In this document: positions 28,761 through 56,289 of the stretch, in pieces | Layout of the letters: every line of letters begins with the position of its first letter | How positions within the stretch are numbered: the stretch's first letter is position 1 | From: Rhizobium sp. TH2 | GTDB taxonomy: Bacteria > Pseudomonadota > Alphaproteobacteria > Rhizobiales > Rhizobiaceae | Reading direction: 5' to 3' | Assembly: GCF_024707525.1 (NCBI RefSeq) | Contig: NZ_CP062231.1 | Span: 1,488,001 to 1,552,000 of the forward strand | DNA length: 64,000 nucleotides | Made by a program: the position numbers and the translations under genes | The notes under the pieces: model-generated | Databases searched by the model: none | Told to the model about the DNA's origin: nothing | Seen by the model: only the letters and a program-made list of their open reading frames with translations

Positions 28761-28798
28761 AAATGGAAAAGGCCGGAGCGATCCGGCCTTTTCCATTT
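28761..28798. terminator. Bidirectional terminator
   Basis: A perfect 16-bp stem (28761-28776 with 28783-28798) with a 6-base loop; the outer bases give A/T tracts on both sides. It lies between ndvB (ending 28735) and the convergent DUF3008 gene (ending 28797) and serves both. Confidence 0.9.
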
Positions 28799-28988
28799 AA
28801 TGCTTGGTCGTCTTATGCTCGGGTTTGCCCTTGCGCTTGGTCGACGCCATCTTGTCGAGTTCTTTCTCGCTCATCGATTCTTCCATCGATTTCGAGGCGC
28901 CCTTGAGTTTGCTTTTGGGCATGTCGCCGCGCTTGGCAGCGAGTGCGGCGCCGGCAGCCTTCTGCTGGGCCTGGGATTTTGCGGGCAT
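28797..28988 (-). CDS. DUF3008 family small basic protein (63 aa)
   Basis: A lysine-rich soluble protein beginning MPAKSQAQQKAAGAALAAKRG and ending in KRKGKPEHKTTKH, matching DUF3008. The function is unknown; the composition suggests a nucleic-acid-binding or disordered stress protein. I chose the ATG at 28988 because AAGGAG is seven bases before it; the earlier ATG at 28994 almost touches the site. An EcfG-type promoter lies 55 bp upstream, fitting stress induction. Confidence 0.88.
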   Translation of the reverse strand: MPAKSQAQQKAAGAALAAKRGDMPKSKLKGASKSMEESMSEKELDKMASTKRKGKPEHKTTKH

Positions 28989-29042
28989 GATCATACTCCT
29001 TCCGGAACGGGTTGAGACGGATGCGCTCTCCCCAGACCAGAA

Positions 29043-29067
29043 AACGCGGCATCGCTGCCTTCGTTCC
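29043..29067 (-). promoter_or_regulatory. EcfG-type promoter candidate before the DUF3008 gene
   Basis: On the - strand, GGAAC (29067-29063) and CGTT (29046-29043) are 16 bp apart, upstream of the DUF3008 start. Confidence 0.6.
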
Positions 29068-29083
29068 TGAAGGCTTTTCGAGT

Positions 29084-29461
29084 TCAGAAGGAAACGGTCA
29101 TCTCGCGGATGGTCGTGATGACCCGGTCGAGATTATACGGCTTGTCGAAGAAGCGACACTCCGCCGGCATCTCGTTCGCGGTAACCCGGCGATAGCCCGA
29201 CGTGATGATGATCTTGAGTGGCGGCCAGCGGTCGCGCGCGAATGCCGCAAGCCTTACCCCGTCCATGCCGCCGGGCATGTCGACATCGGTGAACATCGCC
29301 TGGATATCGGAGTTCTTGTCCAGGATCGCGATTGCCTCGCGTGCATTGCCGGCTTCATGAACAACAAAGCCAGCTCTTTCCAGGCTGTCGGCAATGTCCA
29401 TGCGGATCAGGAATTCATCTTCCACGACGAGGACTGCGATTTTGTAACTGCTGGCGATCAA
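29084..29461 (-). CDS. Single-domain response regulator (125 aa)
   Basis: A CheY-like receiver without an output domain. The acidic pocket is VEDE, the phosphorylation site is the first Asp of DVDMPGG, the switch residue region is ITSGY and the conserved lysine is in DKPYN. Such stand-alone receivers in Rhizobiales often act in phosphorelays with HWE or hybrid kinases. It lies 115 bp downstream of a (broken) GAF-type histidine kinase gene on the same strand, a possible partner. No EcfG-type site was found. Confidence 0.9.
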   Translation of the reverse strand: MIASSYKIAVLVVEDEFLIRMDIADSLERAGFVVHEAGNAREAIAILDKNSDIQAMFTDVDMPGGMDGVRLAAFARDRWPPLKIIITSGYRRVTANEMPAECRFFDKPYNLDRVITTIREMTVSF

Positions 29462-29576
29462 ATGACTAAAACCGAGGCTAATGAAGAGAATTGTGCAGGT
29501 TTACTCATGCTTGCGTATCATTCTGGTGCCCATCTTACAAAGAAGACGTTCCTGAACGGCTAATATTCATTCTTAA

Positions 29577-30747
29577 TCATGCGGCGGGCATTGTCAGTGT
29601 GAAGCGAGTCTTCTCCGGCGTCGAGTGGGCGTTGAGTTGTCCACCGTGCGCTTTGGCGATTTCCGACGCGATATAGAGGCCGAGGCCGAGTCCGACTTGA
29701 GGCGCATTGTCCGCGCTCTGCGAAAACGGCTCGAAAAGCCTGGGCAGGACTTCAGCCGGAATGGGTGTTCCATGGTTCTCGACCGCCAGTTCGAATTGAC
29801 CGTCACGCGTTTTCGCTTCGACGCGAACCTCGCGATCCGGATCGCCATGCGCCAAGGCGTTGCCGACGAGATTTGACAGTAATTGACCAAGGCGGATCTT
29901 ATCCACTTTGACCGGGCTGGTAACGTGTAAATCCGTGAGAATCATCCGTTCCGGCGCTGCCGAGCGAAACTCATCGACCACCTGCATCAGGTCGCTTTGC
30001 AGCGAGTCGATCTCCTTGATCTCGAGCTTGATGCCGCCGCCCAAACGCCCGCGTGTCAAATCCATAACGTTGCCGACAAGGCCGAGCATGCGATCGATGC
30101 TGTTCTGCATCATCATCAGAATCTTGAGCGTGCCCTCGTCCTCGGTGCGGCGCCTGATCATCTTGATGCCCGCCTGAAGCGACGCCAGCGGGTTTCTCAG
30201 GTCATGTCCGAGCACACCGACGAAGCGCTCGCGAAGCTCGGAAAGTGCGAACTGCTCCGAAAGCGTCTGTTCGTTCGCGACCATTCTTCTGTCGGCATCG
30301 AGATGGCGAGCGATCAGTTCGGCAAACAGCTTGAACATGCCGATGACCTGCGGGTTGTCCACCTTGGCGGGCAATGGATCGATCGCGCAGAGCGTTCCGA
30401 AAAAAGAGCCGTCCTCGAGAAAAATCGGCGTCGAGATATAGCTCTGGAACCCGTACATCGCTGCTGTCGGATGGCCGCAATAGACGGCGCTTTCCTCGAC
30501 GTGATCGATCGCCACCGTTTCCTGGTGCTGGCGTATCTCATGACAGATCGTCGTCTCGACCTTGAGTTCGTCGCCGGGCTTCAGTCCGAAATCGATGCTG
30601 TCGAGCGTCGCACGTGACCCAGCGATCGCTGGTGACGCGGGCGATCGCGGCAAAGCGCATCCCGGTCGTCCTGCAGATGACGTCCAGGATCGTGGGCACG
30701 GCCGCCACACGGCCAATTGCATCGATATCGGATTGAAAATTGTGCAT
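29577..30747 (-). pseudogene. GAF-domain histidine kinase, frameshifted
   Basis: The N-terminal GAF sequence (MHNFQSDIDAIGRVAAVPTI to about VTSDRWVTC) is in one frame from 30747, and the rest (TLDSIDFGLKPGDELKVETT onward) is in another. The shift lies near 30590-30615. Downstream of it the protein continues intact: the rest of GAF, HisKA with LGHDLRNPL, and a HATPase with NLVGNALAHGD and GLGLGLYIASEIAKAHGG. Reading the two parts together recovers the usual GAF-HisKA-HATPase kinase of about 390 residues. It is either a real inactivating indel or a sequencing error; a shorter protein could start within the second frame but would lack part of the GAF fold. Confidence 0.75.
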
Positions 30748-30947: not shown

Positions 30948-30972
30948 GGAACAATTCAGAGTCCCAGCGGTT
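30948..30972 (+). promoter_or_regulatory. EcfG-type promoter candidate before the 31022 gene
   Basis: GGAAC 30948-30952, GGTT 30969-30972, 16-bp spacing, 50 bp before the ATG of the PepSY-like gene. Confidence 0.6.
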
Positions 30973-31021: not shown

Positions 31022-31330
31022 ATGAAAAGATACGTCTTTTTCGCGGCGTTCCTGGCTTTGACGCCTGCGGCCGCCATTGCGCAGGAGGGAGACACGACGG
31101 GAAGCATTAATCCGCCCGTCGTCACTGATGACGGCAATGCAAATATGCCTGTTCCTGGTGAAAACAGCTTCACCGAACCGCAGGTTCGCGAACGGCTGGC
31201 TGCTGCCGGCTATACCGGTATCGGTCATCTGGATCTGGAGTCGGACGGTGTCTGGCGCACGACGGCCATGAAGGATGACACTCTGGTGTCGCTCGGCGTC
31301 GATCACCAGGGCAATATCGTGGAGAAATAA
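31022..31330 (+). CDS. Secreted PepSY-like small protein (102 aa)
   Basis: A signal peptide (MKRYVFFAAFLALTPAAAIAQ) precedes a short linker and a C-terminal block, SFTEPQVRERLAAAGYTGIGHL, followed by GVWRTTAM and VDHQGNI. This is the layout of small PepSY-like periplasmic proteins. GGAGGTAACACC lies before the ATG. A paralogue of the same length is encoded at 51984-52292; the two share the block from SFTE to the end (GNSFTE/GYT/GVWR.TAMK/QGNIV). The function is unknown; an EcfG-type promoter suggests a stress-induced envelope role. Confidence 0.85.
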   Translation: MKRYVFFAAFLALTPAAAIAQEGDTTGSINPPVVTDDGNANMPVPGENSFTEPQVRERLAAAGYTGIGHLDLESDGVWRTTAMKDDTLVSLGVDHQGNIVEK

Positions 31331-31401: not shown

Positions 31402-32865
31402 TCACGTACCGCAGAAGGTCCGGTAGGGCGCACGGTCACCGGGAGCGGGTTCGGTGTAGCGCTCGGCGCCCGGCTGTTCTTCATAGGGCTTCGAAAGCAC
31501 GGCATTCATGCGTTCAAAGGGACCGAGATCGTCTTCATTGATCGCCGCCGCCAGCGCTTCCTCGACCAGATGGTTGCGCGGGATGTAGACCGGGTTGACA
31601 TTGTCCATGCCAGCGGCCCTTTGCTCGTCAAAGCCCGGCTCGCGTGAAAGCCGTGCGCGCCACTCCGCCAGCCACTTGTCAGCCGCCGCCCTGTCTTTAA
31701 AGAGACTCCAGAACGGCATGTCGTCGCCCCCGGCTGAGTTTCCGAGCGCCCGGAAGGCCGATGTCCAGTCCACCGCGTCCTGATGCATCAGGGACAGCAG
31801 CGCCTGGACGAATTCGCCATCCGCATCTTCATTCGTGTGAAGGCCGATCTTCAGGCGAAGCCCCGCCAGCCAGTATTGCTGGAACGCGCCGGCATAGTCG
31901 ATCACCACCTGGTTGGCGGTCTCGACGGCCCTTTCGCTGTCCTCATCGATCAGCGGCAGCAGCGTCTCGGCCAGCCGGGCGAGGTTCCACTGCATGATTC
32001 CCGGCTGGTTCTGATACTGATACCGCCCGCCGCGATCGATCGAGCTGAAAACCGTGGCCGGGTCATAGGCATCCATGAAGGCGCAAGGCCCGAAATCGAT
32101 GGTCTCACCCGAAATCGACGAATTGTCCGTGTTCATCACGCCATGGATGAAGCCGACATGCATCCAGCGGGCCACGAGTGCCGCCTGGCGATCCGCAACC
32201 GCGTTGAGCAGCGCAAGATAGGGCGGCCCCGAGCCTTCGAGTTCCGGATAGAGCCGCTGGATCACATAATCTGCAAGCGACTTGAGGCCCTCGACATCGC
32301 CGCGCGCGGCGAAGAACTGAAATGTGCCGACCCGGATATGGCTTGCCGCGACGCGCGTCAGAACCGCACCGGGCAGCACCGTCTCGCGATGGACATCGTC
32401 GCCGGTCGCCACTGCCGCCAGCGCCCGCGTTGTCGGCACGCCAAGCGCATGCATCGCTTCGCTCACGAGATATTCCCGCAGCACCGGTCCCACCGCCGCA
32501 CGGCCATCGCCGCCGCGCGAATAGGGGGTGCGGCCAGCGCCCTTGAGCTGGATGTCGCGGCGGATACCGTTCCGGTCGATCACTTCCCCAAGCAGGATCG
32601 CGCGGCCGTCGCCGAGTTGAGGTACGAAGCCGCCGAACTGATGGCCGGCATAGGCCATGGCGATCGGATGCGTGCCTTCAAGAACCTTGTTGCCGGAAAA
32701 TATCGCAGCACCCTCGGCCGAATCGAGCATCGCCCCATCTAGTCCAAGCTCATCCGCAAGCGCGTGATTGAACTTGAGCATTTTCGGGGCAGGCACCAGT
32801 GTCGGCTTCACATGCGCGAAGAAGCGGTCGGGCAGTTCGGAATAGGTGTTGGAGAACTCGAGCAT
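31402..32865 (-). CDS. selO: Protein adenylyltransferase SelO/YdiU (487 aa)
   Basis: A pseudokinase-fold enzyme that transfers AMP from ATP to Ser, Thr or Tyr of target proteins, linked in E. coli to redox stress through glutaredoxin and SucA. Family landmarks are PTLVPAPKMLKFN near the start, YAGHQFGGFVPQLGDGRA, LKGAGRTPYSRGGDGRA, HGVMNTDNSSISGETIDFGP and a C-terminal Cys in RTFCGT (the SelO cysteine). I chose the start at 32865 for its match to the family N-terminus; the frame is open to 32910. No EcfG-type site precedes it. Confidence 0.93.
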   Translation of the reverse strand: MLEFSNTYSELPDRFFAHVKPTLVPAPKMLKFNHALADELGLDGAMLDSAEGAAIFSGNKVLEGTHPIAMAYAGHQFGGFVPQLGDGRAILLGEVIDRNGIRRDIQLKGAGRTPYSRGGDGRAAVGPVLREYLVSEAMHALGVPTTRALAAVATGDDVHRETVLPGAVLTRVAASHIRVGTFQFFAARGDVEGLKSLADYVIQRLYPELEGSGPPYLALLNAVADRQAALVARWMHVGFIHGVMNTDNSSISGETIDFGPCAFMDAYDPATVFSSIDRGGRYQYQNQPGIMQWNLARLAETLLPLIDEDSERAVETANQVVIDYAGAFQQYWLAGLRLKIGLHTNEDADGEFVQALLSLMHQDAVDWTSAFRALGNSAGGDDMPFWSLFKDRAAADKWLAEWRARLSREPGFDEQRAAGMDNVNPVYIPRNHLVEEALAAAINEDDLGPFERMNAVLSKPYEEQPGAERYTEPAPGDRAPYRTFCGT

Positions 32866-32940
32866 AGGTCTTTCCCAGGCACGCGGTTGCGGCGCGCCGT
32901 CATCAGGCAAAAATAATGTCGCGAGCGCCCATCGGCAAGA

Positions 32941-33133: not shown

Positions 33134-33159
33134 AACGTGTCCGGGCCGCATCTCGTTCC
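33134..33159 (-). promoter_or_regulatory. EcfG-type promoter candidate before the 33105 gene
   Basis: On the - strand, GGAAC (33159-33155) and CGTT (33137-33134), 17-bp spacing. It is divergent from the promoter at 33162. Confidence 0.6.
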
Positions 33160-33161
33160 CC

Positions 33162-33186
33162 GGAACAAACGGCAAGCGCAGCGGTT
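33162..33186 (+). promoter_or_regulatory. EcfG-type promoter candidate before the 33220 gene
   Basis: GGAAC 33162-33166 and GGTT 33183-33186, 16-bp spacing, 33 bp before the ATG. Its -35 element is only two bases from that of the opposite promoter. Confidence 0.65.
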
Positions 33187-33219: not shown

Positions 33220-33534
33220 ATGAACTTGAAAATCCGCACGATCCCGATCGCCGTTGTGATCGCCGCGCTATTTGCCGGAACCGCCTCCTATGCCCAGACG
33301 GTCAATTCCAGCGATTGCGATGCCGCAATGCCGCCCCTCACGGGCCTGGACAAGGATTCGGGCGATGCGCAGGCCGGTATTGTTCCACACGATTCGCTGA
33401 GCGACCAGCTCGCGACATGCGGTAGCGTGCTCAATCCGCCAGCGATCGGAGACACTGATTTCATCCAGCCCGCCCCCGCGATTGACGATCCGATGGCGAT
33501 CCATCCGCGGGATCCGCAACTGAAGAAGAAATGA
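33220..33534 (+). CDS. Secreted small protein (104 aa), unknown
   Basis: A signal peptide (MNLKIRTIPIAVVIAALFAGTASYAQ) precedes a proline- and aspartate-rich tail with two cysteines (SSDCDAAM and LATCGS) that could form a disulfide. AAGGAG is placed well before the ATG at 33220. It is preceded by an EcfG-type promoter. No family is recognised. Confidence 0.75.
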   Translation: MNLKIRTIPIAVVIAALFAGTASYAQTVNSSDCDAAMPPLTGLDKDSGDAQAGIVPHDSLSDQLATCGSVLNPPAIGDTDFIQPAPAIDDPMAIHPRDPQLKKK

Positions 33535-33549: not shown

Positions 33550-33574
33550 GGAACCAAGCCGCCGTCCGGCCGTT
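33550..33574 (+). promoter_or_regulatory. EcfG-type promoter candidate before the 33617 gene
   Basis: GGAAC 33550-33554 and CGTT 33571-33574, 16-bp spacing, 42 bp before the ATG. Confidence 0.65.
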
Positions 33575-33616: not shown

Positions 33617-33940
33617 ATGGCAATCCATGAACCCCATGGCGACCGAGACGATCGCCGCGTGGAACTGAGCCCCGTCGAGGCCCGGCAGGGCGTGCTCGGG
33701 CGGCCCGTTCTTTATGTGCTTGTCGTCGGCCTGCTCCTTGCAATGCTGGCTTGGGCCGCGTCCGAATTCTGGGGCATGAGCATCGACACCCAGACCCCGA
33801 AGGATAACGCACAGATCACGGCCCCGGCGACCGAACCGGTCACCGAGAACGAGAACATCGTCAATGACAATCCTCCGGCAGGCGAGAAGTTGGAAAAGGC
33901 GCCCGCAGTCATCGACCCGACCACGCCCACCAACCAGTAA
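33617..33940 (+). CDS. Single-pass membrane protein (107 aa), unknown
   Basis: A polar N-terminus of about 28 residues, one membrane helix (PVLYVLVVGLLLAMLAWAA) and a proline/asparagine-rich tail that should face the periplasm. AGAGGA precedes the ATG. It has its own EcfG-type promoter and a terminator hairpin just after the stop, so it is a one-gene stress unit. No family is recognised. Confidence 0.75.
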   Translation: MAIHEPHGDRDDRRVELSPVEARQGVLGRPVLYVLVVGLLLAMLAWAASEFWGMSIDTQTPKDNAQITAPATEPVTENENIVNDNPPAGEKLEKAPAVIDPTTPTNQ

Positions 33941-34105: not shown

Positions 34106-34195
34106 GGAGAGGTGGCCGAGTGGTCGAAGGCGCTCCCCTGCTAAGGGAGTATACCCGGAAGGGTATCGTGGGTTCGAATCCCATCTTCTCCGCCA
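34106..34195 (+). tRNA. tRNA-Ser (anticodon GCU)
   Basis: A 90-base type II tRNA with an encoded CCA end. The acceptor stem GGAGAGG pairs with the 3' strand ending CTTCTCC with one G-T pair. The anticodon stem CTCCC/GGGAG encloses CTGCTAA, giving GCU. A long variable arm (TACCC/GGGTA) and GGTTCGAATCC complete it. The decayed dnaE2 begins 21 bp downstream; tRNA 3' ends are common integration sites. Confidence 0.97.
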
Positions 34196-34216: not shown

Positions 34217-36021
34217 TTATTTGCGATGTAGTGGCAATAGGCCCACTTGGAGGCCCACTTTGGGTTCCATTGGCAGCGTCAGCGCGTATTCACGAACGAT
34301 TCGCGAACTTAAGACGCGGCACTGCTTTCTACAGGCCTCCATCCTGCGAAGATGCGTTATGAAGACGTGTGCCGATCTTCCATCCGTTCGATCAGGCATC
34401 GGCATCCGGGCGGCAATACCAGCTTTCCGCACTGTTTTCTCGCGTCGTTCGAGGCCGAGATTCGGACGAAACGCATCCGCCTTTGCCAGTTGGACAAGAG
34501 CGGGTACCGGAACACGGGCTCGGCGCCAGATGTCATCGACGGAGGCAAACGGTTCGTCGGCACGTTCATTGACGATTGTCACGCCATGCGCGTTGGCCAA
34601 CGTCTTGACCATCCGGAAGCCGAGGCGGACGGCAAAGCGACTCTCATCGGCTGTCGGCTCCAGTGTGCAGTCCCAGCGTGAGGCGCTGACCGCAAACTGG
34701 TCGCACGTCGATGCCGTGGTTAATGGCATCGCGGACAATCTCCGCCGGCGCATAGAAGCCCAGGGCTGGGCATTGAGCAGTGCACAGCAGAAGACATCCG
34801 GATGCCAGCACTTCACCCAGGATGAAGCGTAGGCAATCAGGGCGAAGGAGGTGGCATGGCTCTCGGGAAAGCCGTAGGAACCAAAGCCTTCGATCTGGCT
34901 GAACGTCTTATAGGCAAAATCCTGATCGTAGCCACTGGCCCTCATGCCATTGATCAGCTTCATCTTGAACTGGCTGACACCACCGGTGAACTTGAAGGTC
35001 GCCATGGACCGGAGCTGGTCGGCTTCACCAGGCGAGGTCGCCACCCGCATGGCCTGTTCCTGAAACAGCGGCACGCCGAGCGTCTTGCCGAGCAATTTCT
35101 CCAGCTCCGGACGCGGGAACACGACCGGCTCCTTGCCTTCTCGCCTCCGGAGATAGGGATGCACAATGTCACCCTGAATTGGACCCGGTCGGACGATGGC
35201 GACTTCGATGACCAGGTCATAGAATGTCCGAGGCTTCAACCGTGGCAGCATCGACATCTGCGCCCGCTTTCGATCTGGAACGTCCCGAGCGTATCGGGCT
35301 TGCGGACCATCTGGTAGGTGCGCGGATCTTCAGGCGGGATCGTCGAGAGGTCGTGCTTGATGCCCTTGTGCTGTTCTAGCAGATCGAAGCCACGCTTCAT
35401 GCAAGACAGCATGCCGAGCGCCAGGACATCGATCTTCATGAAACTTCAGGATATCGATGTCGTCCTTGTCCCGCTCGACAACCTGGCGATCGATCATGGC
35501 TGCCGGCTCGATCGGCGCGATGTCATCCAGCCAATCGCGTGTCAGGACGAAGCCACCAGGATGCTGGGATAGGTGACGCGGAAAGCCGACGAGCTTTTGC
35601 GCCAGTTCGATCGTCAGCCTCAGTCGGCGGTCACCAAGATTGGAATTGAGCTCACGCGCCGGCGTGCCATCGATGTCCTCGCCATGACCCCAAACATGCG
35701 ACGAGAGAATCTTGGTCATATCCTCCGGCAGGCCGAGTGCTTTGCCCACATCGCGGACAGCTCCCTTCGAGCGATAGCGAATGACTGTCGAACAGAGTGC
35801 GGCGTGGTCCCGGCCATAGGTCTCGAAGATCCATTGCATGACGATCTCACGTCGCTCATGCTCGAAGTCGACATCGATATCAGGCAGTTCACGTCGCTCC
35901 TCGGACACGAACGCTCGAAGAGCAGATCGTTCCGGGCCGAGTCGATTGCTGTGATGCCGAGCACATAGCAGACGGCGGAATTGACTGCCGAGCCTCGCCT
36001 CTGGCAGAGGATGTCCCTCAA
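34217..36021 (-). pseudogene. dnaE2: Remnant of error-prone DNA polymerase DnaE2 (ImuC)
   Basis: Pieces of the polymerase core run collinearly on the - strand but in several frames: [19 protein letters not shown] (from about 36018), [58 protein letters not shown], then [20 protein letters not shown] and [10 protein letters not shown]. The whole N-terminal PHP region of the roughly 1080-residue enzyme is missing. At least four shifts are needed; one is a lost A turning CCCATGGGC into CCCTGGGC near 34770. The two catalytic aspartates in PDIDVDFE survive, but the gene cannot make a polymerase. No imuA or imuB is in the window. It starts 21 bp from tRNA-Ser. Confidence 0.9.
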
Positions 36022-36128
36022 TCAACCTGGGTGGAGTCTCCGCAATCGGGAATTGACCGAACGACAGGAGGCCAACGCAGGCGTTATATTTGCAAGCCTC
36101 CCCCTATCACAGCAATCACTGGCAAAAA

Positions 36129-37098: not shown

Positions 37099-37124
37099 AA
37101 CTGGTTCAGAGGTGTGAGAGTTCC
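37099..37124 (-). promoter_or_regulatory. EcfG-type promoter candidate before the yidB-like gene
   Basis: On the - strand, GGAAC (37124-37120) and AGTT (37102-37099), 17-bp spacing, 45 bp before the start. Confidence 0.5.
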
Positions 37125-37490: not shown

Positions 37491-37515
37491 GGAACTCGGA
37501 CCGCCGGAAATGGTT
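37491..37515 (+). promoter_or_regulatory. EcfG-type promoter candidate before the 37537 gene
   Basis: GGAAC 37491-37495 and GGTT 37512-37515, 16-bp spacing. Its -10 region overlaps the ATG at 37510, showing that translation starts at 37537 instead. Confidence 0.6.
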
Positions 37516-39369: not shown

Positions 39370-40296
39370 TTACCTGGACGCCTTGTAAAGACGGTCTGCG
39401 ATTTCCATCATTTCTTCCGGCGCGTAATCCGGGGTAAAGGCTGAAGGAACGCCAGTTAGCTGGTGGATTTTGCCGCCCTCGGGGTGGCCGTCGATCACCT
39501 CCAGCTCGCCAGGAGGATCGCCAGGCAGCGCCATTTCTCCTTCGCCTCCCCAGATGCCGGAGATGCTCTTGTAATCTTTCGGGCTCCAGGTGTAGAGGCG
39601 ACGATGCGAGCCCTCAGCAAGATACTTCTGGCATTCGGGAATGTTGCTCAGACGGATGTTGGGGGTCGGCAGCATCTTCTCGATTTCCACGCCAGTGATT
39701 TTCTTGATCGCAAGCGCATAAGCGTGGGCATGCACGGAGCCACGAACCAGAAGGTAGCCGCATACTTCGCGGCCGGTCGGATCGGTGAGCGTTTCATAGA
39801 CCCGGAGCTTATGGAGACGAGCACCGCACTCGAGGTGGAAGTTGTGCAGTAAATCTACAATCACGTTTCCGGTCGTGGTTATGAAGTCGTTGTTCCAGCC
39901 GACGCCGTTGCCGTTGACCGGCGTCGCTCCACCCGCATTCGACAAAAATGCCGCTGCCAGGCGAATGTCCTTCATCGCTTCGTACGGTGCGCCGGAGATA
40001 TCGCCGCCGTCGGCTTCATCACCATCGTTGTCCGGCCCATTGTTGAGCATAGCAACGCCGTTGCTGACCAATTCAACATGGCCGATTTCTTCAGCCGTGA
40101 TGCTCGCGACCAGATCGTAGAAGGGTCTTAGCTTTGCTTTCGAACGGAAATTGAAGCTCTGGAACATGTAGTTGCCCAGCGTGGACATCTCGCCGTATTT
40201 ACCGCCGAGAAGTTCTTGGAGGGCCGCCGCCGCATTTGGGTCCTTTTTCTTCGGCGCGGGCAGTTCCGCCTGAAGCTGGTCGATTCTCATAAACAT
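39370..40296 (-). CDS. Manganese catalase (308 aa)
   Basis: A non-haem catalase disproportionating H2O2 with a dimanganese site. Ligands expected from the family are visible: Glu in YGEMSTLGNY, Glu and His in EEIGHVEL, Glu in HLECGARLHKLRV and His in RGSVHAHAYA. The length and ferritin-like helices fit. I chose ATG 40296 (AAGGA eight bases before it); ATG 40290 is close behind. An EcfG-type promoter is at 40352-40328, divergent from that of the DUF4142 remnant. It is a typical general-stress-regulon gene. Confidence 0.95.
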   Translation of the reverse strand: MFMRIDQLQAELPAPKKKDPNAAAALQELLGGKYGEMSTLGNYMFQSFNFRSKAKLRPFYDLVASITAEEIGHVELVSNGVAMLNNGPDNDGDEADGGDISGAPYEAMKDIRLAAAFLSNAGGATPVNGNGVGWNNDFITTTGNVIVDLLHNFHLECGARLHKLRVYETLTDPTGREVCGYLLVRGSVHAHAYALAIKKITGVEIEKMLPTPNIRLSNIPECQKYLAEGSHRRLYTWSPKDYKSISGIWGGEGEMALPGDPPGELEVIDGHPEGGKIHQLTGVPSAFTPDYAPEEMMEIADRLYKASR

Positions 40297-40327: not shown

Positions 40328-40352
40328 AACCTTTGGACCGAGTGCATGTTCC
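40328..40352 (-). promoter_or_regulatory. EcfG-type promoter candidate before the Mn catalase gene
   Basis: On the - strand, GGAAC (40352-40348) and GGTT (40331-40328), 16-bp spacing. Confidence 0.65.
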
Positions 40353-40382: not shown

Positions 40383-40408
40383 GGAACGAAGCAGAGTTGC
40401 AGCGGGTT
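40383..40408 (+). promoter_or_regulatory. EcfG-type promoter candidate before the DUF4142 remnant
   Basis: GGAAC 40383-40387 and GGTT 40405-40408, 17-bp spacing, divergent from the catalase promoter. Confidence 0.55.
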
Positions 40409-41064: not shown

Positions 41065-42075
41065 GTGACGAGCGCGGATACTGACGACCATCCCGCCTGG
41101 AACCAGGAACAGCTTCGGCGTGCTATCAAGGCAGCCGGGATAGCTCTTTGGACATGGAACGTCGACAGCGATGCGTTCACAATGGACCGACGCGGCTATG
41201 AGTTGTGGGATGTCTCAACTGAAGACGCGACGCTGACATTCGAGCACCTTTCGGAAAAGATTCATCCGGCCGATCGCGATAGGGTGAGGGCGGCGTTTGT
41301 TGCGACAAGGGCCGTCGTCGGGCAATATGAAATCGACTTTCGAATGCTGACCAATCCGGGAGAGGTCCGTTGGATATCCGCTCGCGGGCAAGGCGACGAT
41401 TTCGAGATAGCTGCGCGTATCATGTCGGGCGTATTTCTCGATGTCACCGGGCGCAAACAGGCCGAGGAAGGTCACGAGCTGCTCGCGGGCGAGATGAGTC
41501 ACCGCGTGAAAAACCTTTTGGCCATTGCTAGCGGCCTTACCCAGATCACTTCACGGTCGTCTACATCGGTCGACGAGATGGCTTCCCAATTGACCCAGCG
41601 ACTGGCTGCTTTAGGTCGTGCCCACGACCTGGTACGCCCGTTGCCCGGAGGTCAGGGAAGTGCGGCTTTGCTAGGCGACCTGTTCACGGTGTTACTTGCG
41701 CCCTATGACGACGAAGGAGCGTTTTCCGGACGGATTAGGGTCGCGGTCCCACGAATGGGCGTGGGGGAGAACGCCGCGACAGGGGTCGCTCTCGTGATCC
41801 ATGAGTTGGCGACCAACTCCCTCAAATACGGTGCGCTCTCAGCAGCCGCGGGAAACCTCGATATTTCTGGCAAGATGGTCGGCGACGATGTTGACGTAGT
41901 CTGGACGGAGCAGGGCGGCCCAGGTGTGGAGCCACCGGAGGGTTCAGGTGGCTATGGCAGCAAGCTCGTGCAAAGGACCATGAGTGGCCATCTCGGCGGC
42001 TCGATTACCTACAATTGGACACCAAGTGGTGCGGTTGTGACATTGCGTATGAAGGGGGACCGACTTTCCGCATAG
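41065..42075 (+). CDS. PAS-HWE sensor histidine kinase (336 aa)
   Basis: A soluble kinase with an N-terminal PAS domain (about residues 15-130: AGIALWTWNVDSDAFTMDRR to VFLDVTGRK) and a C-terminal HWE-type kinase: the phospho-His in EMSHRVKNLLAIA, the N-box ALVIHELATNSLKYGAL and the WTEQGGP motif that names the family. HWE kinases often feed the PhyR-EcfG stress pathway in Alphaproteobacteria. Start GTG 41065 has GTGAGG five bases upstream. No partner gene is adjacent; the stand-alone receivers at 29084 and 36129 are candidates. Confidence 0.9.
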   Translation: MTSADTDDHPAWNQEQLRRAIKAAGIALWTWNVDSDAFTMDRRGYELWDVSTEDATLTFEHLSEKIHPADRDRVRAAFVATRAVVGQYEIDFRMLTNPGEVRWISARGQGDDFEIAARIMSGVFLDVTGRKQAEEGHELLAGEMSHRVKNLLAIASGLTQITSRSSTSVDEMASQLTQRLAALGRAHDLVRPLPGGQGSAALLGDLFTVLLAPYDDEGAFSGRIRVAVPRMGVGENAATGVALVIHELATNSLKYGALSAAAGNLDISGKMVGDDVDVVWTEQGGPGVEPPEGSGGYGSKLVQRTMSGHLGGSITYNWTPSGAVVTLRMKGDRLSA

Positions 42076-42186: not shown

Positions 42187-42211
42187 GGAACGTTCAACCG
42201 CCGCTGCAGTT
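42187..42211 (+). promoter_or_regulatory. EcfG-type promoter candidate before the 42241 gene
   Basis: GGAAC 42187-42191 and AGTT 42208-42211, 16-bp spacing, 29 bp before the ATG. Confidence 0.55.
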
Positions 42212-43225: not shown

Positions 43226-43250
43226 GGAACATCGATGAAATCCGCGGGTT
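43226..43250 (+). promoter_or_regulatory. EcfG-type promoter candidate before the SDR gene
   Basis: GGAAC 43226-43230 and GGTT 43247-43250, 16-bp spacing, 30 bp before the ATG. Confidence 0.6.
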
Positions 43251-44144: not shown

Positions 44145-44192
44145 AACACTGTGACTTGGGTCAACGATCTGACAGTCGAGAGAGAAGTCACG

Positions 44193-46195: not shown

Positions 46196-48838
46196 CTAAC
46201 GGCTTTGAACGCGGCCCAGCCGCTTGATTGCCTGTTCCAGCGGGCGCTGTCCGTCGCAATAATCCTTCCAGGCAGTGCTCTTCTGGATGAGGGCAGGGAC
46301 CGTGCGGATCGTATATTTCTTCGGATCGAGATCGGCCTTTACCTGCGTCCAATTCAGAGGCATCGAGACCGTTGCTCCGGGACGGGCACGAGGCGATAGT
46401 AGTGCCACCGCGGTGGCCATCCGATCGTTGCGAAGGTAATCCAGGAAGATGCGGTTAGTCCGCTGGTTCTTCGCCATCTTGGTAAGATACCGTTCCGGAT
46501 TATCGCTCGCCATCGCCCGGCATACATTGTGTGCGAATGCCTTTGCCTGATCCCAGTCGAGCTTCTTGCCCTTTGCAACAGCTAGAGGCGTGACCACATG
46601 CAGCCCCTTGCCGCCTGTTGTCTTGCAAAAACCCACGAGTCCAAGCGCGTCCAACCGATCCCGGATTTCTTTTGCGGCCTCGACGACCGCCCCAAACGCA
46701 ACCTCGGGGCCGGGATCGAGATCGAAGACCAACCGACCGGGGACTTCCGGCAGACCGGGTTCGCAATTCCATGGATGGAGCTCAACTGCACCGATCTGTG
46801 CCGCAGCGATGAGCCCCTCGACACGATCGATTTGAAGATAGGGCTTGCGGTCGCCAAAGACCGTCACCAGTTCAATTAGGTTTGACGTGCCCGGCATGGC
46901 ATGGCGCTGGAAGAATTGCTCACCACTTAACCCGTCGGGCGTACGGATAATCGAGCAGGGGCGTCCTTTGAGGTGACCGATCAGCCAGTCGCCTACGGTC
47001 TCGAAATATCTTGCTAGATCTTCTTTCGTGACAGGCTTGTTGTCGCCGGCGTCTGGCCAGAGCGCCTTGTCCGGGCTCGATATCAACACGCCCATCACAT
47101 CGGCTTTCGCGCCTTTTCGACGACGGTTGCTCTTGGCTTGAGCCTCTGGATCAGGCACCTCGACTTTTGAGGGTTCGGCTGGCTTTTCGGCCTCGACTTC
47201 TGCGGCAGGCTTGTCTTCCCGCAGTCCTTTGAACGCTGCCTGACGGACCAATCCGTCCGCCGTCCAGCCAGCAAACTCGATCTCGGCTACGAGTTCCGGC
47301 TCTAGCCATACAACACTGGATTTCTTTTTAGGCGCGCCAATGCCTGTAAACGGCGACTTCCTGGCCTCGAATTGCTTCAGCTTCGGCAGCAGTTTTGCCA
47401 GCTTGCCCACTCCATACCCCGTGCCCACGCGACCGACATAAACAAAGTGATCACCGCGATTGACGCCGACAAGCAGCGAACGAAACTTGCCGTTGGTCGT
47501 GGCATAGGCGCCGATGACCACTTCGTGCCCGGCACGGCATTTGGATTTAGCCCAGGTGTCGCTGCGACCGGAAACATAGGGGGCGTTTGCTTGTTTCGAA
47601 ACGATGCCTTCCAGTGAAAGCTTGCAGGCTGATTTGAGAACGGCGTCGCCACCTGTTTCAAAATGCTCAACGTAGCGCAGCCGAGGGTCATCGCCGGCAT
47701 CGGAGAGAAGCTTGGCGAGATGCTCCTTTCGCTCGGCGAGCGGCAGGTTCCGAAGATCTTCGCCACCTTCGAAGAGCAGGTCGAACCCGAAGTAAACAAG
47801 TTCGTCCGTCTTACCTTCGGATAGAGCTGCCTGAAGTGCGGCAAAGTCTGGCGCGCCGTGTTCATCAAGCGCGCAGATTTCTCCATCGATAATGCCATCA
47901 GGCAATGCCGAGCCTGCGTCCGCAATTCCAGGATAGCGCTTGGTCCAATCCAGGCCCTTCCGGGTCAGGAGCTCGACCTCGCCGTTCTCGACCCGCATCT
48001 GGATACGGTACCCATCGAACTTGATTTCATGAAGCCAACCATCTGCGGATGGCGGACGAGCGAGCGTCTCACAGAGCTGAGGGGGAATGAAATCGGGCAG
48101 CGGAGTGCTCTGGTTCTTATTGGGGGCCTTCTTCGATGCTCTTGCATCTGCCGCCCGTTCGTCCGCGGCCAGTCCCTTGTTGCTATCCCAGACAGCGTCG
48201 GCGGTGACGTTGCCGTTCTGAATCATAAATGGCTTGGGCTTTCGTCCTTGGCCGGATGCGATCGCATCCAGACTGCGTCCAGAGGCCACCGAAGTGTCAT
48301 TTTCCTCGAGGATTTGCTCGCCGTTTTCATCGACAGCAAATTCATCCCGATGCTTGATCAAGAGCCAGTTCGTCCGCTTGCCGCCATCGCGGTCGTGACG
48401 CATGCGCACGAGCACGAAGCTCCCATGCAGCCGCTTTCCCTCTAGCGTGAACTTGAAGTCGCCTTTCGCCAAAGCCTCTTCCGGCGATCTGGTGCCCTCT
48501 GGCTCCCAGTAGCCTCGGTCCCACAGCATGACCGTGCCACCGCCATATTGGCCTTTAGGGATCGTCCCTTCGAAGTCGCCGTAGTCGAGGGGGTGATCCT
48601 CAACCTCCACAGCAAGGCGCTTGTCATGAGGATCGAGCGAAGGACCTTTGGTGACCGCCCATGATTTGAACACGCCGTCCAGTTCCAGGCGCAGATCGTA
48701 ATGGAGCCGGGTGGCGTCATGTTTCTGAATAATGAACCTGCGGCGATTGCTAGGCTTTATCTCCGCTTCGCCACTCGGCTCCGCCGTAAGCTTGAAATCG
48801 CGCTTCTGTTTATATTTGGAAAGTTTGTCGGCTGCCAT
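46196..48838 (-). CDS. ligD: Multifunctional DNA repair ligase LigD (880 aa)
   Basis: Joins double-strand breaks in bacterial non-homologous end joining. Domain order is phosphoesterase (about residues 30-190: [20 protein letters not shown], then [11 protein letters not shown]), ligase (about 250-560: [11 protein letters not shown] with the catalytic lysine, IIDGEI, LEGIVSK) and primase/polymerase (about 620-880: [12 protein letters not shown] with the metal aspartates, [11 protein letters not shown]). This PE-LIG-POL order is typical of rhizobia. I chose ATG 48838 to match the family; the frame is open to 48919. No ku gene is in the window. Confidence 0.95.
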
Positions 48839-49228
48839 GATCGCCTCGGAACGCAACGCGGAAAGAGATAAAGTGCGAACCGGACAGGTTGGGCGCTCGA
48901 CTGCCATTTCGTTGGCCACAGTGGGAAACGGGAAAAACCGCTGTGTTCACCATCCCTGCCACGTCCGATTGACGCGGCTCGCAATACGAGATCAGAAAGC
49001 GGACCTCACCCTTTGGTTCCAACCGACCGGAACAGCTTCGCTGCCAAGGCTGACGACCAACGGCTGGCATGGTGTGTCAGCCTACGATCAAGCCCCCAAT
49101 TTCCAGCAGACGACATTAGGGGCCCGCGTGGGAACATTGCACACTTTCTGCCGTTTCACCGTCAACGATACGGCTCACTCCATCCGTGTCGGATTACCTC
49201 ACCAAGTAAATCTCAGGAGGAGATCACC
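48839..49228. other. 390-bp divergent intergenic region
   Basis: It separates ligD (-) from the stress gene at 49229 (+). The only recognisable element is the EcfG-type promoter of the latter at 49131-49155. No ligD promoter was recognised, and I see no gene or repeat. Confidence 0.6.
49131..49155 (+). promoter_or_regulatory. EcfG-type promoter candidate before the 49229 gene
   Basis: GGAAC 49131-49135 and CGTT 49152-49155, 16-bp spacing, 73 bp before the ATG. Confidence 0.6.
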
Positions 49229-50767: not shown

Positions 50768-51072
50768 CTCGTCCGGCCAAGTCCGGCCATCGGTATTTCT
50801 TGTTAGACTCCGTCATTCTTGGCTATCGCGCCGCTCCCGGCGTCACCCGTTCGCGCTCCTTCATGAGTGTCTTAACCGTGCGCTTGATCGACCTTGCCGC
50901 CTCGGTCCGGGCTCGCATCTGCGCTCTGCTGCTATTCCTCGGCTGCCAAAGCGACGTGCCAGGCATGTGGCATCACGCGCCAGGGACCGTTCGGATATGA
51001 TCTGCCTTTCAGGCATCGCAACTCTCCATCACGCAACTAAAGCGAGTCAATCGCCGGCCGCTCGACTCGTTC

Positions 51073-51102
51073 CGCAGGTGAGAAAAGAATCTTCGCAACC
51101 GA
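51073..51102. repeat. Copy 1 of a short dispersed repeat
   Basis: AGAAAAGAATCTTCGCAAC (51081-51099) is identical at 54719-54737. Preceding GTTCCG and about 35 following bases are also similar but diverged. It is in intergenic DNA. Confidence 0.55.
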
Positions 51103-51363
51103 GTTGTAAGGGAACTGTGCGGCTCAATTGTTGACGTTGAGCAAGGCGTGGACTGATCTCAGGTGAACACCACACGCTGCAAGGATATCGTGCCAGACGG
51201 CGGCTTTGTTCGAGGCAAGGCCGCGAAGCCGATGAGGCGGCGGAGTTGGTTCCCGGCCTAGACGTCGGGTGTAGCCGACGATATCGCGTACCGTTGTGCA
51301 GCCACGCCGTCGATTATCGAAAGGTTGCGCCGCCGATCTCTGTTGCCGGCGGCGCGTCGGAAA

Positions 51364-51960
51364 TCAGACCAGCGGATATCGATTCCGTTCCGCCGCGATC
51401 TGGTCGCGGGAATAGGGATCGAGGCTCGAGTCGAAACCCTTCCAGCCCTGCTGCTCATAGGCGCTTCGACGCAAGGCGGGATCGACGGGCTGGTTGCCCC
51501 TCAGGATGCCCTCCGCTTCCGCGACACGGCTCTCGTCAACCCGGGCGGTCACCAACGAACCACCGCGACGGACGCCCTCGGCATAGACATGCGCGTCATT
51601 TTCCGGCACGCCTGACTCTGTCAGTGCGCCGATGATGCCGCCGGCCGCGCCGCCTACTGCTGCACCAGCGACCGCGCCGACGGCCGTGGCTGCGAGCCAG
51701 CCGGCAGCCACAACGGGGCCTACGCCTGGGATGGCAAGCATGCCGAGCCCGGCCAACAGGCCACCTGCTCCGCCCGCCACAGCGCCGAGACCAGCACCGG
51801 TGCCCGCGCCTTCGGCGGCATCGGTGTCGCCGTCATAGCGGCCGTCGCCATTGTTGGAGACGATGCTGATGTCATCATGCGAAATGCCAGCGCTTTCGAG
51901 CTGGGATATAGCAGAGCGGGCATTGTCGTAATTGTCGAATAGTCCTGTAACTGTTCTCAT
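51364..51960 (-). CDS. Glycine-rich YflT-like stress protein (198 aa)
   Basis: An N-terminal YflT-like module (VTGLFDNYDNARSAISQLES...GISHDDISIVS) is followed by a long Gly/Ala hydrophobic tract (AGLGAVAGGAGGLLAGLGML...) that may insert in or coat a membrane, then YAEGVRRGGSLVTARVDESR and a C-terminal RDQIAAERNRYPLV. AAGGA precedes the ATG at 51960. It follows the PepSY-like gene by 23 bp and is probably co-transcribed from the EcfG-type promoter at 52359-52335. Confidence 0.85.
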   Translation of the reverse strand: MRTVTGLFDNYDNARSAISQLESAGISHDDISIVSNNGDGRYDGDTDAAEGAGTGAGLGAVAGGAGGLLAGLGMLAIPGVGPVVAAGWLAATAVGAVAGAAVGGAAGGIIGALTESGVPENDAHVYAEGVRRGGSLVTARVDESRVAEAEGILRGNQPVDPALRRSAYEQQGWKGFDSSLDPYSRDQIAAERNRYPLV

Positions 51961-51983
51961 GGGTCATTCCTTCCCTAAAATTC

Positions 51984-52292
51984 TTATTGAGAGACGATGT
52001 TGCCTTGATAATCGAGGCCGACCGGCATCGACTTGCCGCCCTTCATGGCGGTGCCGCGCCATACGCCCTTGTCGTCCAGCTTGAGCGCCGAAACTTCCGT
52101 GTATCCGGCCTCGACGATCCGCTCCTGCGCCTGTGCTTCCGTGAAGCTGTTGGCGCCTTCAACCGGTGCCGTAGCGTTCTTCGAGTCAGGCGTTGCGACG
52201 GCTGGCGTGTCGCCGTCTGTTGCGGCCGTCTGGGCAAAGGCCTGCATTGAGACGGCGCTGAGCAGCGCCGCTGCGATAAGTGTCATTTTCAT
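51984..52292 (-). CDS. Secreted PepSY-like small protein (102 aa)
   Basis: Signal peptide MKMTLIAAALLSAVSMQAFAQ, then a Thr/Ala linker and the block SFTEAQAQERIVEAGYTEVSAL, GVWRGTAMKGG, LDYQGNIVSQ. It is the paralogue of the 31022 product: same length, same layout. AAGGA is seven bases before the ATG. It is the first gene of a two-gene unit with the YflT-like gene. Function unknown. Confidence 0.85.
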   Translation of the reverse strand: MKMTLIAAALLSAVSMQAFAQTAATDGDTPAVATPDSKNATAPVEGANSFTEAQAQERIVEAGYTEVSALKLDDKGVWRGTAMKGGKSMPVGLDYQGNIVSQ

Positions 52293-52334
52293 GATTTTTC
52301 CTTATTGTGGAACGAGTTAGCCTCGTGTCTTGGA

Positions 52335-52359
52335 AACTCGCACTGGCGATGGAGGTTCC
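52335..52359 (-). promoter_or_regulatory. EcfG-type promoter candidate before the 52292 gene
   Basis: On the - strand, GGAAC (52359-52355) and AGTT (52338-52335), 16-bp spacing. Confidence 0.55.
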
Positions 52360-52435
52360 TTGCCCGCGAAGATTTAAAATGCTCGTTCACTTCGGTTTCG
52401 GGAGCTGCGCTTTTTTCCGTACCGGCTCGGTAGTG

Positions 52436-52610
52436 CTATTCAGCGTTCTGATTGACGACAGAAGTCGCAATCGATGTCAGAGCCAAATCGGTCGCCTGTT
52501 CCTCGTCAAGTGTCGTCTGCAACAGGCCGGCGGCATCGGTCAGACCCAATTCCAGCACCCATGTCCTCAGCGTGCCGTAGCGCGACATTTCGTACGTCCC
52601 ACGGCACGTG
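52436..52610 (-). pseudogene. 3' fragment of a YciE/YciF-type (DUF892) ferritin-like gene
   Basis: The - strand reads YEMSRYGTLRTWVLELGLTD then LLQTTLDEEQATDLALTSIA and stops at 52436, matching the last two helices of DUF892 proteins. Upstream, RAV appears one frame off, and the rest of the gene (about 110 residues) is absent; the hybrid kinase gene ends only 34 bp away. It is a deletion remnant. DUF892 genes are frequent in stress regulons. Confidence 0.75.
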
Positions 52611-52643
52611 CTGCTGAAAGGAAACTCGCGACGGGGCGCGCCC

Positions 52644-54598: not shown

Positions 54599-54623
54599 AA
54601 CGTCCTTGCAGCCGGTATGTTCC
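54599..54623 (-). promoter_or_regulatory. EcfG-type promoter candidate before the hybrid kinase gene
   Basis: On the - strand, GGAAC (54623-54619) and CGTT (54602-54599), 16-bp spacing. It supports the start at 54567 over the ATG at 54588. Confidence 0.6.
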
Positions 54624-55405
54624 ACCTTCACGGCAGTGGACTGTCGGCAATGTCGGCTCCGTTGGTCGCTCAACTGAGGCACGTTAATGGACGATGCTTG
54701 CGAGATGTTCCGAGATCAGAAAAGAATCTTCGCAACTGAATTTAAGTTAAGTAGCGCGGCTTACTGGCGCTGAACTCAATCCCAACTAGTCCGGACGCAT
54801 TAGGTTCCCGAAGTTAGCCGATCTGAGACGTCTTGCAATTTCCATAACCTTGGGCTCGGGTGTTTAGCCCAGCGATGCGACAATTTGGTCCGTCGCCTAA
54901 TACGTTTCCCACGGAACGGACCGACGCTGCATGTGTTCGGGGCCGGTAAGGTCGTCTCTTTGAAGCCTTGCTAACTATGCCGTTCTCTGACGTTCACCAA
55001 TTTCGTCTCTCCGGGAACCAAGCGGAGGACGGCATCTTTTTAGAACAATAGACTGCCGACGTTGCGTCCGCATCCTCTGCCGAGTCAGGGTTTTTGCCTC
55101 CTATGTCGCTTTGGTTTTTCGCCGCGCTCATCATCGCCGCGACCGCTTCCTCAAGACCGTACCCTGGCTTCGGCCACCATCGCGCCGATCTGAACGTCGA
55201 ATACTGCTTCAAGTTCAATGCGCCGTACTGATCGTTAAGGGCGCGATGGGCGAGTTTGATCGGTGCTGAACACGCGAACGTATCGCGCTGGAGAACGGCA
55301 CAGTTGGCAGCACCCAAGAAGCCTGGTTCTGCGAGCATCAAACAGGCAGAACGCTTTCCGTTCCACAATCATTTATGCCGCAGTGTAACCGATGGTCCGA
55401 TGTCC
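54624..55405. other. 780-bp region without a convincing gene
   Basis: It holds the second copy of a short dispersed repeat (54719-54737). An open - strand frame at 54994-55368 has a low-complexity, non-conserved-looking product and no ribosome-binding site. I see nothing else. Confidence 0.55.
54712..54740. repeat. Copy 2 of a short dispersed repeat
   Basis: AGAAAAGAATCTTCGCAAC (54719-54737) is identical to 51081-51099; flanks are similar but diverged. Confidence 0.55.
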
Positions 55406-55624
55406 TCATTCCTTCGGCGGTGCGCCTTTGTCCCATGTGGTCTTAAAGCCATCCGAGAGATCTCGCTTGCGCGGATCCTGCAAGGTCTCGCCATTGGCGT
55501 CCCGATCGACGTCCGGATCGTCGGCAGGCAGGTAACCCCGCTGCCGGGTCTCTTCCGGACCTTTCCACCGCGGGAATTGACCGGTGGTGCCAGGGGCAAC
55601 GTCTTGGGGTGATTTGATGGACAT
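55406..55624 (-). CDS. Small hydrophilic protein (72 aa), unknown
   Basis: Starts MSIKSPQDVAPGTTGQFPRW, with many charged and Pro residues (DDPDVDRDANGETLQDPRKR) and no hydrophobic core, so probably disordered. AAAGGA precedes the ATG at 55624. Third gene of a three-gene unit transcribed from the EcfG-type site at 56289. No family is recognised. Confidence 0.7.
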   Translation of the reverse strand: MSIKSPQDVAPGTTGQFPRWKGPEETRQRGYLPADDPDVDRDANGETLQDPRKRDLSDGFKTTWDKGAPPKE

Positions 55625-55637
55625 CGGGAGTCCTTTC

Positions 55638-55835
55638 TCAGTCTCGTTTGTTGGTTTGCGTGCGGATGCCGAAACCTGGGTTCGGGGAAGGTTTCTTGTC
55701 GGCATTTTCTAGAGTGGCGTCGTCCTTCCCCGTCACCGCGCGCGGGGTAGCACTGGCGAGACCATTGTTCTTTCGGTCACCCTGTGACTTGGCGAACTGA
55801 CCCTTGGCGTCCTGCTGAATTTCAGTTTTGGCCAT
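55638..55835 (-). CDS. Small hydrophilic protein (65 aa), unknown
   Basis: Starts MAKTEIQQDAKGQFAKSQGD and is Lys/Asn/Asp-rich without hydrophobic segments. Its ATG directly follows the TAA of the preceding gene, with GAGGGA inside that gene's end, so translation is coupled. Stress-regulon context; function unknown. Confidence 0.7.
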   Translation of the reverse strand: MAKTEIQQDAKGQFAKSQGDRKNNGLASATPRAVTGKDDATLENADKKPSPNPGFGIRTQTNKRD

Positions 55836-56237
55836 TTAATTTTCCCTCGGTGGCATTTCGTTGCGGACGTCGTTCGGATCGATCCCGATTTCCGGATTGC
55901 CCTCGAACTGTGGACCGTCCAATTCCGTCGGGCCGAATCCAGGTTGAGCGCGCGGGTCAAGCGTGCCGGTGCCATCGACAGCCGCCATTTCGTCAAGCAG
56001 GTTCGGCTTCTGCGTTTCCGTAAAGGCGAGCGTTTCGGTCTCTTCGGAGACGGACAGCTTCGTTGCGGGGAGGCTGCCGTCGCCAGCCGGCACTAGCTCG
56101 TCGATCGGATCAGGATCGGGACCGCGCCTCTCACTCGTATGCTCATGCCCACCGTGTGGGTCGTTCGCGCTGCCTCCGGTCCTGCGATGGTCGCTGTTGG
56201 GGTTGGAGCCGGGATTGTTGATTGCTTCGCCTGGCAT
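55836..56237 (-). CDS. Acidic disordered protein (133 aa), unknown
   Basis: Starts MPGEAINNPGSNPNSDHRRT and is rich in Pro, Asp, Glu and Gly, with a short hydrophobic patch near LLDEMAAV. AAAGGAG is eight bases before the ATG at 56237. First gene of a three-gene unit with an EcfG-type promoter 28 bp upstream. I do not recognise a domain. Confidence 0.7.
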   Translation of the reverse strand: MPGEAINNPGSNPNSDHRRTGGSANDPHGGHEHTSERRGPDPDPIDELVPAGDGSLPATKLSVSEETETLAFTETQKPNLLDEMAAVDGTGTLDPRAQPGFGPTELDGPQFEGNPEIGIDPNDVRNEMPPREN

Positions 56238-56264
56238 TGCCGCTTCTCCTTTGTTCCCCTGTAG

Positions 56265-56289
56265 AACTCTGTCTAGACGGCACAGTTCC
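56265..56289 (-). promoter_or_regulatory. EcfG-type promoter candidate before the 56237 operon
   Basis: On the - strand, GGAAC (56289-56285) and AGTT (56268-56265), 16-bp spacing. Confidence 0.55.

Follow-up and report, generated by a model that had tools for sequence, protein, structure and literature searches.

A dense cluster of EcfG-type promoter sites in a chromosomal island of Rhizobium sp. TH2, probably a deposit of a circulating stress-gene pool

INTRODUCTION

In the general stress response of the EcfG family, stress activates PhyR, PhyR binds NepR and the sigma factor EcfG is set free. The usual picture of a general stress regulon is one of genes that are scattered through the genome and united by a promoter. 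Such promoters have been mapped genome-wide for RpoE2 of Sinorhizobium meliloti (PMC3616915), and in the parts of the papers available to us the motif published for Rhizobium etli EcfG1 (PMC3616915, PMC3892343, PMC3188799 and PMC6599016 as a group) agrees in spacing and core with the sites described below. The corresponding motif of Sphingomonas melonis is GGAAC-N17-20-GTT, and EcfG targets named there include catalases, thioredoxin reductase, ferritin-like proteins, Ku and a PRC-barrel protein (PMC6599016). Here we analyze a stretch of 64,000 nucleotides of Rhizobium sp. TH2 (the window; contig C1:1,488,001-1,552,000 of a 6.44-Mb genome on four contigs), in which the part between 28.8 and 56.3 kb, called the island, is densely set with EcfG-type sites, that is GGAAC and NGTT separated by 16 or 17 bp. 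In our best reading this is not one dedicated locus: an accessory gene pool wired to EcfG has left several deposits in the genome, of which the island is the densest.

A co-regulated gene cluster is also known from Pseudomonas aeruginosa. According to the portions of the source at hand, PA2134-PA2190 comprises 57 genes on 60.7 kb that share one expression profile; 32 are under quorum-sensing and/or RpoS control, and the run contains the catalase gene katN, Zn alcohol dehydrogenases, glycogen genes and a hybrid sensor (PMC1525188).

MATERIALS AND METHODS

Sites were defined as exact GGAAC-N16-NGTT or GGAAC-N17-NGTT and both strands were scanned; the distance from site to gene is counted between the last base of the -10 element and the chosen start codon. 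Genes are our own choices among open reading frames (ORFs) by codon score, not the output of an annotation tool. Positions without a contig name refer to the window. As controls we used every spacing between 7 and 26 bp except 16 and 17, 18 in all, as well as the motif read backward. For the background we sampled this genome in 49 stretches of 20 kb each (980 kb), and density was ranked with the 179 listed 16-bp sites on C1:1-5,159,163. When 1.3 Mb of fetched DNA was scanned directly, the result agreed with the site lists in 74 of 74 sites. The names YciF, DUF1236, CsbD and ImuA outside the window were assigned by eye or taken from plasmid annotation.

For the comparison around manganese (Mn) catalase we used 80 loci with a total of 1.48 Mb; they rank highest among at least 515 and are hence close relatives of the query. 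Locus L069, filed under a cyanobacterium and probably a mis-binned contig, was retained, and 79 of the 80 loci passed the filters for the upstream-motif count. Mn catalase occurred in 25 plasmid records, and the loci of six were fetched.

RESULTS

The exact scan gave 18 sites in the window, one at 20163-20188 and 17 within 28.8-56.3 kb, where 14 have 16-bp and three have 17-bp spacing. As in an EcfG regulon, they lie shortly upstream of gene starts: 16 of the 18 precede a correctly oriented ORF of at least 54 aa by 21-73 nt, 12 of these 16 with the 16-bp spacing and 15 of them inside 28.8-56.3 kb. A preliminary description, made from the letters of the window, had arrived at the same three counts with a distance of 22-74 nt, and had placed behind such sites DUF3008, PepSY-like, YidB, Mn catalase, thioredoxin reductase-like, SDR and YflT-like genes, genes of disordered small proteins, a kinase gene and two decayed genes.

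The 27.7-kb island holds 14 sites with 16-bp spacing against 0.79 expected from the background (28 per 980 kb), with a Poisson probability of 2e-13 at the sample rate and 1e-11 at the whole-genome rate (252 sites). Each of the 18 control spacings gave zero to four sites in the island and the reversed 16-bp motif gave one; the 15-bp class, with three island sites versus 0.79 expected, was handled as background and is excluded from the 14. A start preceded by a ribosome-binding site was found 15-90 nt downstream of 11 of the 14 island sites compared with seven of the 28 background sites, the fractions for control spacings being 40/165 in the background and 3/11 in the island. Three of the 14 fall inside an ORF when the script takes the longest start. 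No other 27.5 kb in the scanned 5.16 Mb of chromosome is as dense as the island with its 14 sites of 16 bp; next come 4.84-4.86 Mb (nine), the nepR-ecfG-phyR locus (eight), 3.98-4.00 Mb (seven) and 842-860 kb (six), whereas 5000 uniform placements reached a maximum of nine, in seven of them. The density noted in the preliminary description thus does exceed the genomic background.

Matches to EcfG, NepR or PhyR were absent from the window, as the preliminary description had stated; the module lies 750 kb from the island on the same contig. NepR has a single match in the genome, at C1:764.7 kb, above the Pfam cut-off and below the NCBIfam one, and beside it lie EcfG (PRK12516) and PhyR (NF006623), both above their NCBIfam cut-offs, with kinase-like ORFs (by eye) adjoining. 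The three proteins are encoded together behind the motif found in the island: the 16-bp form stands 45 nt before nepR-ecfG and 50 nt before phyR; a gene of this genome judged by eye to be csbD-like also has it, at a distance of 55 nt. An EcfG search of the genome gave eight matches at E up to 1e-8, EcfG itself counted, the second-best of which (C1:2,914,483) is 33% identical. About 1.3 kb from this candidate second EcfG there are two divergent 16-bp sites (C1:2,913,120-2,914,959).

Across Alphaproteobacteria the motif is conserved before orthologs of one island target, Mn catalase. Directly upstream of this gene 45 of 79 loci carry the 16-bp form, five the 17-bp and two the 15-bp form, and the other 17 spacings sum to 16. 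Over the whole loci we counted 161 sites of the 16-bp and 44 of the 17-bp form versus 19-46 per control spacing (n=18). The 35 sites in strict context lie 26-64 nt from the start, and 13 of them have C before GTT. In one of the loci, from Brucella sp. 21LCYQ03, an EcfG-like sigma gene with its own 16-bp site is located at L091:13886-14377. Because of the spacing enrichment, the density, the motif of the genome's own nepR and phyR and the conservation before Mn catalase, most island sites are very probably EcfG promoters.

Comparable clusters exist elsewhere in this genome, at least four of them: C1:842-862 kb, 3.98-4.00 Mb, 4.84-4.86 Mb, and 28-90 kb of the 223-kb contig C3. Their sites precede, among others, YciF-, PepSY-, DUF1236-, DUF4142-, SDR- and dehydrogenase-like genes, several of which are paralogous to island genes, and contig C3 holds paralogs of LigD, the Zn dehydrogenase and the DUF4142 gene. 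Contig C2 is similar mostly to plasmids of Rhizobium, Sinorhizobium and Agrobacterium. Positions 51328-52620 are a 1.3-kb duplication of C1:850 kb at 91% identity, promoter included, in which yciF is reduced to the last ~50 codons. Similarity to ORFs from the cluster at C1:842-862 kb is also seen in short stretches at 50567-50785, 51024-51107 and 55066-55260, a hint that the two regions share an old duplication of larger extent.

Much of the island gene set is also present, reshuffled, on two plasmids. Plasmid p3 of Pararhizobium qamdonense, typed as conjugative, has 12 sites of 16 bp in 27 kb versus 0.83 per control spacing. It encodes two kinases, a DUF4142 protein, a dehydrogenase (90% identical to that of the window), Mn catalase (85%), an SDR (82%), an FAD oxidoreductase (56%), TreY/TreZ and glycogen/starch synthase. 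The plasmid of Bosea sp. Tri-49, typed as non-mobilizable, carries 12 plus 4 sites, and the remaining four loci have one to five. A site ~30 nt before Mn catalase occurs in five of the six plasmid loci, the Bosea plasmid being the one without. The identity figures by themselves do not prove transfer, because Mn catalase may simply change slowly.

The region is likely accessory. Its left edge is the end of the glucan-synthase gene (28735), and the guanine-cytosine (GC) content falls from 0.615 to 0.571; the latter value, for 36.1-56.4 kb, compares with 0.606 (standard deviation 0.016) in 48 stretches, two of which are lower. As in genomic islands, atypical composition goes together with patchy presence, for which Mn catalase was the sole gene examined: it was found in five of 61 relatives searched and two of nine of the genus (E to 1e-60), whereas PhyR was found in 41 of 61 and nine of nine (E to 1e-20). 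A tRNA-Ser gene lies inside the region (34106-34195), with remnants of a dnaE2-like polymerase gene beside it (34217-36025). DNA similar to these remnants (76%) occurs at C1:1.57 Mb, where a gene that looks imuA-like by eye also has a 17-bp EcfG-type site.

At the left end of the island the 16-bp site 29043..29067 (minus strand) stands 48 nt before the gene of a 65-aa DUF3008 protein (28797..28994, minus; E 1.9e-29), and the 16-bp site 30948..30972 (plus) 49 nt before a small exported PepSY-like gene (31022-31330, plus), with a PepSY_2 match at no better than E 0.04 and 46% identity to a PepSY-like protein at C1:850 kb. Back to back lie the 17-bp site 33134..33159 (minus), 28 nt before a 54-aa ORF (33105-32941, minus) which is in frame with and upstream of SelO (31402-32910, minus), and the 16-bp site 33162..33186 (plus), 33 nt before the gene of a small exported protein (33220-33534, plus). 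The 16-bp site 33550..33574 (plus) precedes by 42 nt the gene of a membrane-anchored small protein (33617-33940, plus); site-bearing proteins of the loci L087 and L091 resemble it by eye, and no BLAST match was found. Further on, the 17-bp site 37099..37124 (minus) is 44 nt from a yidB-like gene (37054-36506, minus) that is followed by a response regulator gene (36506-36129, minus), and the 16-bp site 37491..37515 (plus) is 21 nt from the gene of a 68-aa protein (37537-37743). We rejected a FATGUY type for the island's two single-domain response regulators, as the motif was not seen in them by eye.

Mn catalase (39370..40296, minus; 308 aa from the promoter-proximal ATG) has its 16-bp site at 40328..40352 (minus), 31 nt upstream, and is followed on the same strand by an ORF (39366-39064) and a Zn-dependent alcohol/formaldehyde dehydrogenase-like gene (38986-37811). 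Divergent from this promoter, the 17-bp site 40383..40408 (plus) lies 30 nt before a broken DUF4142-like gene (40439-40905, plus). The PAS-HWE histidine kinase gene at 41065..42075 (plus) is without an exact site of its own; its product is a candidate input to PhyR, and related kinases are encoded near Mn catalase on plasmids. Then come, both on the plus strand and with 16-bp spacing, the site 42187..42211, 29 nt before an FAD/NAD(P) disulphide-oxidoreductase-like gene (42241-43146), and the site 43226..43250, 30 nt before the SDR gene (43281-44144), after which a DUF72 gene follows (44151-45089, plus).

The NHEJ (non-homologous end joining) ligase gene ligD (46196..48919, minus) has no exact site upstream and adjoins a second ATP-dependent ligase gene (46187-45150, minus). 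At the 5' side of ligD, the small RNA Atu_At1 of Rfam matches 48877-48984 (minus) with 106.7 bits. Since relatives of LigD are encoded by many plasmids of Rhizobium and Agrobacterium, the RNA may move along with ligD. The 16-bp site 49131..49155 (plus) stands 73 nt before a gene (49229-49819, plus) of 196 aa, distantly YflT-like, with 32-40% identity to YflT-like ORFs of the loci L121 and L087 and no Pfam match. On the minus strand, the 16-bp site 52335..52359 is 42 nt before a PepSY-like gene (52292-51984), which is followed by a YflT-domain gene (51960-51364). The remnant at 52436..52588 (minus) is the C-terminal part of a gene named by eye as YciF (DUF892)-like, of which a longer copy with a 16-bp site exists at C1:850 kb.

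A PAS hybrid kinase gene with its frame divided between two ORFs (54567-54160 and 54281-52644, minus) retains the 16-bp site 54599..54623 (minus), 31 nt upstream, just as the broken DUF4142 gene retains its own. Together with the dnaE2 remnants, the two broken genes show turnover. The 16-bp site 54784..54808 (minus) has no ORF directly downstream and is possibly a tandem promoter of this kinase; the 16-bp site 54913..54937 (plus) also lacks a downstream ORF. Small-RNA promoters were considered for these two orphan sites and rejected: Rfam gave no match there and terminators were not above chance, including a weak terminator-like site at 55075-55090 after 54913..54937. The last 16-bp site of the island, 56265..56289 (minus), lies 27 nt before a low-complexity small-protein gene (56237-55836, minus) that is followed by another small gene (55835-55638, minus). 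Outside the island, the 17-bp site 20163..20188 (plus) is found where the cyclic-glucan-synthase-like gene (20090/20225-28735) has its 5' end; if translation is taken from the first ATG, the ORF includes the site. A hybrid kinase of about 2161 aa occupies 58577-64000 and extends beyond the window to about 65062 in the genome, with at least ten HAMP repeats, a GAF domain, a kinase and three receiver domains.

DISCUSSION

On the basis of sequence comparison we consider it probable, at roughly 80%, that 28.8-56.3 kb is an EcfG-wired accessory island which was deposited from a circulating pool of stress genes and is regulated in trans. It would be an accessory, compositionally atypical part of the chromosome with about 15 units, each under its own sigma-EcfG promoter and controlled by the EcfG/NepR/PhyR module 750 kb away. 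Under stress, active PhyR would bind NepR, EcfG would be freed and the island genes might be switched on together. Mn catalase would then remove peroxide; the FAD oxidoreductase, Zn dehydrogenase and SDR probably handle thiols and aldehydes; and PepSY-like, YidB, YflT and DUF3008 proteins would be added as small envelope or low-complexity proteins. The NHEJ ligase gene is part of this stretch too and has no exact site. Since several of its units are paralogous to those of other clusters and of plasmid sets in another genus and another family, the island may be one deposit of this pool, its units having arrived pre-fitted with an EcfG promoter. The dedicated stress locus of the preliminary description holds insofar as dense, spacing-specific EcfG-type sites stand before genes; its exclusiveness does not, given at least four other clusters with paralogs and a gene set that is shuffled between replicons and species.

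Several observations weigh against this reading. Throughout the genome the 16-bp pattern is in modest excess only (252 versus 199 read backward), and in the 0.98-Mb sample there is none (28 versus 35, with a mean of 19.3 over the 18 control spacings); the signal is hence local rather than genome-wide. Depending on the control, the genome exceeds chance by 53 to 125 sites, and by our arithmetic the island, 0.4% of the genome, accounts for about one tenth to one quarter of that excess. Some of its sites may be weak, because C precedes GTT in only four of the 14, unlike the R. etli consensus, which has C. Among the 80 Mn-catalase loci, eight have at least seven sites of 16 or 17 bp and 12 have none. 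The other island genes have zero to eight homologs each in these loci, many without a site (with site: SDR, none of eight; dehydrogenase, three of five), and only two of the six plasmid loci fetched are dense. Beyond the glucan synthase, five congeners (18-40 kb each) differ from the window, with few and distant matches (26-35%) to island genes, and they also differ from one another except for a short block common to two. The last 16-25 nt of the tRNA-Ser gene are not repeated in the window or in 160 kb of fetched flanks, and no integrase was seen among the genes scanned, a scan that covered part of the genes and was not systematic. With no tRNA-end repeat, no integrase seen and congeners that all differ, no clean insertion is shown.

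Could the density of the motif be an artefact of base composition? The GC content of the island is indeed below that of the remainder of the window, but the two elements are not enriched at 18 other spacings, the sites are placed before starts and the spacing is conserved before Mn-catalase genes; the spacing control refutes this idea. It is also quite improbable that the sites serve another ECF (extracytoplasmic function) sigma factor, a second EcfG-like one or one of another GGAAC-reading group, outside the PhyR-NepR response. The eight EcfG matches, the second of them close to two divergent 16-bp sites, and the sigma gene in the Brucella sp. 21LCYQ03 locus would fit such a factor; however, the spacing and core of the island sites equal those before the genome's own nepR-ecfG and phyR as well as the R. 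etli EcfG1 motif, as far as the published sources at hand show it, and one copy alone clearly matches EcfG.

A more serious alternative accepts the EcfG promoters as real and explains their clustering without a history of transfer, by chance accumulation and local shuffling in a rearrangement-prone region. The missing attachment repeat, the different genes that the examined congeners carry after the glucan synthase, and the remnants of dnaE2, yciF, DUF4142 and kinase genes, which speak for ongoing decay, are all compatible with such a history. Nevertheless we regard it as unlikely: two plasmids, a conjugative one from another genus and the one from Bosea, carry a similar gene set of high protein identity, and Mn catalase is patchy in relatives, whereas PhyR is general in the genus.

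A wider idea might also be considered, for which we would not quite give even odds. Alphaproteobacteria might share a mobile pool of general-stress genes, whose units, each with its own EcfG promoter, could work at once in any host with the conserved EcfG, NepR and PhyR genes on its chromosome, gather in dense islands on plasmids and chromosomes, and spread tolerance by added targets and not by a moved regulator. Here a sizeable share of sites is located in dense deposits with gene types that recur on plasmids. This offers a testable account of regulon growth through horizontal transfer; it also helps to guess what part small proteins without known function might play under stress.

Dense EcfG islands were not described in the titles and abstract openings of the literature matches listed, which cover the field in part. 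Compared with the EcfG (ECF15) regulons of S. meliloti (RpoE2), R. etli (EcfG1/RpoE4) and S. melonis (EcfG), the island is alike in promoter core and spacing and in the types of targets, Mn catalase in R. etli and catalases, thioredoxin reductase, Ku and others in S. melonis. Those regulons were defined by expression and motif, and dense target islands or similar plasmid-borne sets are not described in the parts of the sources at hand. With genomic islands and accessory regions of plasmids it shares the lower GC content, the patchy occurrence in relatives and the plasmid counterparts; it differs in that no attachment repeat was found, that the genes scanned included no integrase and that one type of promoter, not one function or element, unites the genes. 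PA2134-PA2190 of P. aeruginosa resembles the island in gene content, as compared by its description in the available text and not by sequence, and the set on P. qamdonense p3 extends the likeness to glycogen and trehalose by adding treY, treZ and glycogen/starch synthase. That cluster belongs to a different bacterial class and is under RpoS instead of EcfG, so that, by analogy, a notable parallel in content appears under a different sigma factor.

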